Part shown: positions 47,034-49,268 of the stretch, in pieces
How the letters are laid out: each line of letters opens with the position of its first letter
Numbering within the stretch: position 1 is the first letter of the stretch
From: an archaeon
Lineage (GTDB): Archaea > Nanobdellota > Nanobdellia > Pacearchaeales > GW2011-AR1
Assembly (NCBI GenBank): GCA_027343665.1
Contig: DAHWKL010000001.1
Location: 110,770 to 174,769 of the forward strand
DNA length: 64,000 nt
Direction: 5' to 3'
The notes under the pieces: model-generated
What the model saw: only the letters and a program-made list of their open reading frames with translations
Databases searched by the model: none
Told to the model about the DNA's origin: nothing
Translations under genes and position numbers: made by a program

Positions 47034-47441
47034 TCAGCTCCTTCTAAGAAGTCTTTCAATATTATTTTTATTATTAAAATCCGTTCTTGGCGAACCTTCA
47101 ATCTTCTTCATTATCTCTTCCGGAAAAGTTCCGCCTTTCTCAAGAGCAAGATCAATAAAATGAAGGACCATCGCCCCCCTTAATTCATCAGGTTTTTCAA
47201 GGGAACGGTTGACATAATCTAAACATCCCTTATACATCTTACTTGTGGATGACCTCATAATTTTGTAGTAGATTTTTTTCAGGCCAGTCACGCTCTTAAT
47301 CTCTTCATCGAACTTGTCATCAAAAGTTCTTGATCCACCAATCATATTCACAGCATTGACAGTAAAGGACATCTCCAGATTCGCGTCCAGCACAAAACCC
47401 CGAACTTTAGGTCCGAGATATAATCCCCACTTGCCTTCCAT
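47034..47441 (-). CDS. Uncharacterised 135-residue protein
   Basis: This soluble, mainly helical protein (KWGLYLGPKVRGFVLDANLEMSFTVNAVNM ... SKMYKGCLDYVNRSLEKPDELRGAMVLHFIDLALEKGG) has a Lys/Arg-rich C-terminus. No family is recognised. Its upstream side carries the palindromic insertion element at 47493-47558, so any promoter is close to or within that element. Confidence 0.68.
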   Translation of the reverse strand: MEGKWGLYLGPKVRGFVLDANLEMSFTVNAVNMIGGSRTFDDKFDEEIKSVTGLKKIYYKIMRSSTSKMYKGCLDYVNRSLEKPDELRGAMVLHFIDLALEKGGTFPEEIMKKIEGSPRTDFNNKNNIERLLRRS

Positions 47442-47483
47442 TTTCTTTCATAATATCACTGCTTTGAAACTTATAAGTTTTTC

Positions 47484-47567
47484 CAGTCGCGTGGCTTTGT
47501 GTATAAAGTAGTGTCTGTGTAAAAAGTAGCTCTTTATTTAGACTTTATACACAAAGCCCGGTCGCGT
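47484..47567. mobile_element. 66-bp palindromic MITE-like insertion with 9-bp target duplication
   Basis: GGCTTTGTGTATAAAGT (47493-47509) and its exact reverse complement (47542-47558) flank a 32-bp centre that is itself an imperfect hairpin (GTCT...AGAC). The element is bordered by CAGTCGCGT (47484-47492) and CGGTCGCGT (47559-47567), identical in 8 of 9 bases. A 17-bp perfect terminal inverted repeat plus an 8-9-bp direct repeat is the mark of transposition; the TGTGTATAAAGT/TGTGTAAAAAGT wording is reminiscent of IS256-family ends. The element codes for nothing, so it is a non-autonomous MITE-like remnant. Confidence 0.72.
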
Positions 47568-47651: not shown

Positions 47652-49268
47652 ATGGACAAAAAAGTCGATCTGATGGCAGAGAATACCGAAAGGATTATGG
47701 GAAAAGATGCTCAAAGGAATAATATCTTAGCGGCAAAACTCGTTTCCGAAGTTGTTAAAACTACGCTAGGCCCAAGAGGAATGGATAAAATGCTTGTTTC
47801 CCCGACAAATGATATAATAATCACTAATGATGGTGTTACAATACTCTCTGAAATGCAGATTGAACACCCCGCGGCAAAGATGATGGTTGAAATCGCGAAG
47901 ACACAGGAAAAAGAAGTCGGGGATGGGACAACCACTGCTGTAATGATAGCTGGAAAACTCCTGGAAAATGCGGAAAAACTTCTGGACAAGAAAATTCATC
48001 CGACAGTTATCGTGAAAGGTTACAGGATGGCTCAGGAAAAAGCACAGGAGATTTTAGGAGATATTTCACTCAAAATAACACCCAATAATACAGAGATATT
48101 AAAACAGATAGCAATGACTGCCATGACGGGCAAAGGCGCAGAGGATGAAAAAGAATTTTTTTCCGGGCTTCTTGTGAATGCAATAAAATCGGCAGGAATC
48201 ACAAAAAATGCTGACATAAGTGATATAAAAATTGAGAAAGTTGTGGGGGAAGGAATAAAAAATACTGAACTTGTGAAAGGAATCATAATAGATAAAGAAA
48301 GGATCTCAAATGATATGCCAAAAAAAGTCCAGAACGCAAAAATATTACTGATCGATTTCCCAATTGAAATAAAAAGCCCGGAAATTGACACAAAAATATC
48401 CATTTCAAGCCACAATGAGCTGCAGAACTTTCTGGATGAAGAAGAGAAATCGATAAAACTAATGGTCCAGAAAATTATTGCCACAGGAGCGAATGCTTTA
48501 TTCTGCCAAAAGGGTGTTGATGATTTTGCGAGATACCTCCTCTCAAAGTCCGGAATATATACCTGCCGACGTGTAGCAAGGTCGGATATGGAAAAGATAT
48601 CAAAAGCGACAGAAACCAAAATAATATCAAATATAAATGAAATAGGATCAGCAAGCCTAGGAGCATCTGATGTTGTTGAAGAGATAAAAAAAAGCGGGGA
48701 AAATATGACTTATGTAGGCGGATGCAAAAACCCAAAAGCAGTAACTATCCTCGTTCATGGCGGAACGGTGCATGTCGTGGATGAGATTGAAAGAGCGCTT
48801 CTCGACGGATTAGGAGACATAGCAAGCGCACTGGAAACCGAACTTGTTGTTCCCGGAGGGGGTGCTATAGAGATGGAGATTTCAAAAAGAATAAAAGAAT
48901 ACGGGACAACTTTATCCGGGCGTGAAAGACTTGCTGTTGAAGAATATGCAAATTCTCTGGAGTTCATTCCGACAACACTTGCGGAAAATGCAGGCATGGA
49001 TCCAATTGATGTCATAACGGAACTTAAATCAAAACATGATTCCGGAAATATGAACGCAGGACTGAACCTGTTCACAGGCAAAATCGAAAACATGATAAAT
49101 GCTAAGGTTATAGAACCATCAAAAATAAAAGTTCAGGCAATAAATTCAGCAACTGATGTAGCAACTATGATTCTTAGAATCGATGACGTTATACTATCAA
49201 AACTGCCAAAAAAAGGCAGAATGAATGAACTCGGAAGCTTGCCTGGTTACATGGAGAGTTTAAGTTGA
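47652..49268 (+). CDS. thsA: Thermosome (group II chaperonin) subunit
   Basis: The protein has 538 residues. [27 protein letters not shown] near the start, [15 protein letters not shown] near 90 and [16 protein letters not shown] near 400 identify the CCT/thermosome family, an ATP-driven ring folding chamber. The usual Gly-Met-rich C-terminal tail is missing; the chain ends YMESLS. TTTAAATA lies about 26 bases before the ATG (leaderless). Its stop overlaps the TTG start of the GNAT gene. Confidence 0.96.

Follow-up and report, generated by a model that had tools for sequence, protein, structure and literature searches.

A 66-bp palindrome between divergent archaeal promoters: very probably a MITE of a DPANN transposon family with a SWIM and IS5-type transposase

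What kind of sequence is a 66-bp palindrome that lies between the promoters of two divergent archaeal genes, flanked by short direct repeats? The palindrome is found in a 64-kb stretch of DNA (64,000 nucleotides, hereafter the window), between a minus-strand gene and the thermosome gene (Table 1). The archaeal host genome that was searched comprises 812 kb in 10 contigs and is about 88% complete. An initial annotation had described a non-coding 66-bp element whose 17-bp terminal inverted repeats match perfectly and whose flanking direct repeats are identical at eight of nine positions, and every one of these features was recovered on recomputation. The two arms leave 32 nt in between; the element contains no open reading frame of at least 80 aa and no transposase. 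It is the sole perfect inverted repeat of at least 17 bp (spacer up to 60) in the window, zero equivalents arose in 60 first-order Markov simulations, and its DNA folding z-score is -6.8. A third, internal repeat at 47516-47529, missed at the first reading, makes the two ends of the element differ from one another.

Table 1. Positions of the element, its parts and its genomic surroundings in the window
Feature	Position	Strand	Remark
Minimal non-autonomous element, 66 bp	47493..47558	.	complementary ends, flanking repeats, family copies
Left terminal inverted repeat, GGCTTTGTGTATAAAGT	47493..47509	+	
Right terminal inverted repeat	47542..47558	-	17/17 complementary to 47493..47509
Putative 9-bp target duplication, left copy, CAGTCGCGT	47484..47492	.	
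Putative 9-bp target duplication, right copy, CGGTCGCGT	47559..47567	.	
B-type end	47493..47527	+	direct repeats TGTGTATAAAGTAG (47498-47511) and TGTGTAAAAAGTAG (47516-47529), spaced 18 bp
A-type end	47514..47558	-	hairpin; overlaps B end
135-aa gene, product without assigned function	47034..47441	-	context; promoter beside insertion
Thermosome (archaeal chaperonin) gene	47652..49268	+	context; divergent neighbour
TATA-like box of minus-strand gene, CTTATAAG	47470..47477	-	16-23 bp beyond left end of element
TATA-like sequence of thermosome gene, TTTAAATAA	47623..47631	+	64 bp from right end; undisturbed by insertion

Matches to the element (E up to 0.1) occur in 51 of the 180 genomes of the family, and near-complete copies in two of them, G035 and G005. 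The G035 copy (L043) is 66 bp long, 89% identical to the window element over 65 bp, lies upstream of psmB and has a perfect 9/9 duplication, GGGCGTGAA. The G005 copy (L044; 65 bp, 89% identical) lies at an RRM gene and has an 8/9 duplication. A relative of 86 bp (L118), from a Woesearchaeota record, adjoins rpS13, again with a perfect 9/9 duplication, TATTTGCTG. The search for further copies in this genome and its relatives, which the initial annotation had proposed, is thus answered by related copies at unrelated loci in other genomes, and the refuting condition set there, that no second or related copy exists anywhere, does not hold. In the host genome itself a second, diverged and shorter hairpin of 48 bp (C3:90839-90886, L011) lies 45 bp upstream of a gene that we take, from inspection of the sequence by eye, to encode ribosomal protein S6e; a convincing target duplication was not found at this hairpin. 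No empty site was found at the nucleotide level in a close strain: G003 (thermosome) and G100 (psmB) are without the element, but are too diverged to serve as empty sites. Viral contigs gave zero matches.

Members of this element family, ranging from 65 bp to 4 kb, have two distinct ends, A and B, which share the terminal repeat. Inward of the terminal repeat, the A end (about 45 bp) has the internal repeat in inverted orientation, forming a hairpin, and the B end (about 36 bp) has it in direct orientation at 18 bp spacing. Complete elements mostly consist of one A end and one B end. In the window element the two ends overlap and both use the repeat at 47516-47527, which explains its small size. 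The B end of a larger, transposase-bearing relative, L216 (GGCTTTGTGTATTAAGTAGTCTGTGTGTAAAAAGTA), is very similar to that of the window element, and the L216 ends overall are likewise similar. A B end also occurs upstream of S6e in G048 (L066), and A-type ends are found beyond close relatives in Methanimicrococcus (L120), Nanohalarchaeota (L121) and Methanoperedens (L115). Bacterial matches to the A pattern (L117, L119, L123, L124 and L128) are symmetric terminator-like hairpins and were rejected as A ends.

Target duplication of fixed length is a hallmark of DDE transposition. Fifteen elements, from 65 bp to 4 kb long, could be delimited, and all have 9-bp duplications, 12 of them perfect and three at 8/9. 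Compared over 9 bp, their flanks have a mean identity of 0.98; at lengths 5-8 and 10-13 the value drops to about 0.3 (0.28 to 0.39). This sharpness is partly built in because the elements were picked by their ends and a 9-bp match with one mismatch allowed. Independent loci agreeing on both ends and on the duplication length are evidence for a 9-bp duplication. A mobile element that duplicates 9 bp of its target is strongly supported, and we infer transposition itself. The initial annotation had read transposition from the window repeats; that reading is now backed by perfect 9-bp duplications at unrelated sites and by transposase-bearing relatives with the same ends.

The position of the element at the promoters of two divergent genes, also part of the initial annotation, proved right, and the family adds a phasing to the TATA box. 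In an alignment of 62 non-redundant outer flanks, a TATA-like motif occurs at -23, -22 and -21 (26, 6 and 14 matches), over a background of about one per position in the same alignment. In 13 of the 15 delimited elements one side has such a motif between -25 and -21, compared with 12.9% of random intergenic targets at the same loci (binomial P about 2e-10), and in 10 of the 15 it has a stricter motif, compared with 7.7% (P about 1.5e-8); both P values are optimistic, as motif and interval were set after viewing a histogram that includes the 15 elements. The narrow peak is a stronger argument than the P values; neighbouring intervals from -40 to -16 hold zero or one element each. The TATA box may face either end of an element, and in the window the box at the phased distance belongs to the minus-strand gene, the thermosome box being untouched. 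Since the peak is too narrow for survivor bias alone, targeting is the preferred reading, and the element family appears to target promoters.

This placement raises the possibility that the element serves the genes it separates. It might have been co-opted, after insertion, as a promoter or insulator for both divergent genes: it lies between two intact core promoters, adjoins the BRE/TATA of the minus-strand gene, and its two halves are still perfectly complementary. The site, however, is not conserved at the locus even within the genus, and a recent insertion would likewise show perfect repeats; co-option seems unlikely. Judged from sequence, the element may have some effect on expression.

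Far less probable is a conserved regulatory palindrome, which as an operator or an RNA hairpin would regulate proteostasis genes. In several genomes copies do lie upstream of the genes for thermosome, psmA, psmB, cdc48, S6e and TBP, several ends at psmA, psmB, cdc48 or S6e are about 15 bp away from the TATA box, the predicted hairpin is strong, and perfect symmetry could suit a dimeric regulator. Yet among 30 psmA loci (in one of which the start was not found) there is one clear match (L247) and one weak match (L271), and the element is absent from all other thermosome upstream regions examined. The copies also have exact 9-bp duplications at their flanks and transposases or passenger genes between their ends, and they adjoin unrelated genes too. 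Because the thermosome and proteasome promoters of relatives are mostly without the element, it does not represent a conserved regulatory site; a palindrome defining a proteostasis regulon was rejected, most orthologous promoters lacking it.

The likely source of mobility is found in longer relatives. A class-wide search for the transposase was prompted by DDE_Tnp_1 fragments within such ends (L131, L054) and, in G039, by a longer copy adjoining a B end. Five of the 15 delimited elements, all five in other genomes and each with an A end, a B end and a 9/9 duplication, enclose a transposase gene: L200 (3672 bp), L201 (4026 bp), L203 (3887 bp), L206 (2350 bp) and L216 (2042 bp, the gene internally deleted). 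The transposases typically have a SWIM zinc finger at the N terminus, scoring near the Pfam cut-off, together with DDE_Tnp_1; as read here, the L203 gene (342 aa) is without the SWIM part. Among NCBIfam models IS5_2 fits best (NF033579; E 1e-35 to 3e-41), with scores of 141.8 for L203, 139.6 for L200, 127.5 for L197 and 123.3 for L206 against a curated cut-off of 140. As expected of the IS5 family, a DDE_Tnp_1 or IS5-type transposase lies between matching ends. IS903 has a 9-bp duplication and GGCTTTGTTGAATAAATC, and its group is presumably a neighbour of the family, judged by the ends, so that the assignment to an IS5 subgroup rests on this likeness to IS903.

The autonomous element with matching ends sought by the initial annotation therefore exists in these five cases, all in other genomes; none was found in the host genome (about 88% complete). 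The single DDE_Tnp_1 gene of the host is 42% identical, without the SWIM part and without such ends, so the window copy is apparently partnerless in the about 88% assembled. Many generic DDE_Tnp_1 loci were inspected and show no A or B ends. The initial annotation had likened the ends to IS256, and both the duplication of 9 bp and the TGTGTAAA-rich ends are reminiscent of that family, but a minimal IS256-family derivative is hardly credible: PF00872 is absent from the host genome, weak PF00872 matches in the family are without such ends, one of them is classified as an IS6/IS240-type transposase and scores best to IS240-type DDE, and elements with matching ends are occupied by the IS5-type SWIM transposase.

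The 66-bp palindrome is thus very probably a MITE of a DPANN-archaeal transposon family with a SWIM and IS5-type DDE transposase, moved in trans. The element would be little more than the A and B ends of the family. Autonomous members encode the SWIM zinc finger and IS5-type DDE transposase, which would have acted in trans on the 66-bp element, probably by cut-and-paste. The insertion, immediately upstream of the BRE/TATA core promoter that serves the minus-strand gene, would have duplicated 9 bp of its target. A dedicated regulatory function of the element is not expected. Counted against the MITE reading are the missing partner in the host genome, the 8/9 duplication, the low copy number and the lack of an empty site. 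High copy number is usual for MITEs, yet the mechanism does not require many copies; the host genome has one clear and one diverged copy, short of the many copies typical of MITEs.

Comparison with known systems places the family between several of them. Prokaryotic MITEs are an established kind of short, non-coding element with terminal inverted repeats, a target duplication and a transposase acting in trans (PMC10969869). The window element is like them in being short and non-coding, with inverted repeats, a target duplication and an intergenic position near promoters; unlike them, it has just 66 bp, asymmetric overlapping ends, one or two copies and a phasing to the TATA box. With the IS5 family it shares, through its relatives, a DDE_Tnp_1 domain best matching IS5_2, GGCTTTGT ends and the 9-bp duplication. 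The differences from IS5 are the N-terminal SWIM zinc finger, compound A/B ends with iterated repeats, passenger genes, a size of up to 4 kb and transposases that mostly score under the IS5_2 cut-off.

Many elements of the family carry passenger genes only, without a transposase, and these often appear to be restriction or defence genes. Only part of the elements so tallied have both of their ends and a target duplication mapped. Passengers recognized by Pfam or PADLOC include HEPN, GmrSD (DUF262/HNH), PDC-S18, PDDEXK_3, DUF3800, Fic and nucleotidyltransferase, with a DUF3644 match below the cut-off. Among transposase-bearing elements, L200 carries a C5 methyltransferase and a weakly matched REase_II candidate, L216 an N6/N4 methyltransferase and L203 DUF559; N6 methyltransferases also lie beside transposases with one mapped end (L198, L205). 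An unannotated protein of ~160 aa (MTNPFELPKELL...) is encoded just inside the A end at three loci (L049, L060, L070), suggesting a recurring passenger. A membrane protein of ~98 aa (MNLGVLGLILDIIGVF...) is common to L069 and L077, inside the A end and ahead of different larger genes. L200 and L204 have clearly different transposases and apparently related pairs of a methyltransferase and a partner gene, hinting at cargo exchange between subfamilies.

Mobile insertion cassettes, which carry a passenger gene and no transposase, are likewise established (e.g. PMC3913671). Several relatives resemble them, with IS-type ends enclosing one passenger gene and no transposase; they differ in what they carry, which in these DPANN archaea is for the most part restriction or defence genes. 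Locus L051:7632-9252 (G001 C17) reads psmA, A end, PDC-S18-type gene, A end and a second gene, all co-oriented. This A-ORF-A-ORF order, and passenger stop codons that often fall at the inner edge of an element end, hint at an integron-like cassette array, an arrangement disfavoured by the exact 9-bp duplications and paired A/B ends.

A precedent for promoter-phased insertion exists in bacteria, where TnGBS, ISLre2 and ISKra4, with Mutator-like transposases, insert 15-17 bp upstream of the sigmaA -35 element (PMC3942029). The present family is similar in that its insertions keep a short, constant distance from the core promoter on its upstream side, and different in its IS5-type SWIM transposase and archaeal TATA promoters, as against Mutator-like transposases and sigmaA. 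In the open-access literature no report of a TATA-phased archaeal element family or of a SWIM-IS5 family was found, and literature searches on DPANN MITEs or SWIM transposases returned nothing specific. To our knowledge, little is known about the movement of defence genes among minute DPANN genomes.

A broader proposal, to which we give even chances, is that SWIM-IS5-like transposons and transposase-less cassettes shuttle restriction and defence genes DPANN-wide and integrate upstream of TATA boxes at a set distance, perhaps by recognising promoter-bound TBP/TFB. If true, cargo would land beside active genes while core promoters are spared. Confirmation would provide a mechanism for defence-gene movement in DPANN archaea, namely small promoter-targeted transposons and their MITEs. 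It would also give archaea an equivalent of the promoter-targeting TnGBS/ISLre2 elements of bacteria, and would make it directly testable whether an archaeal transposase recognises the TATA box or the TBP/TFB complex.
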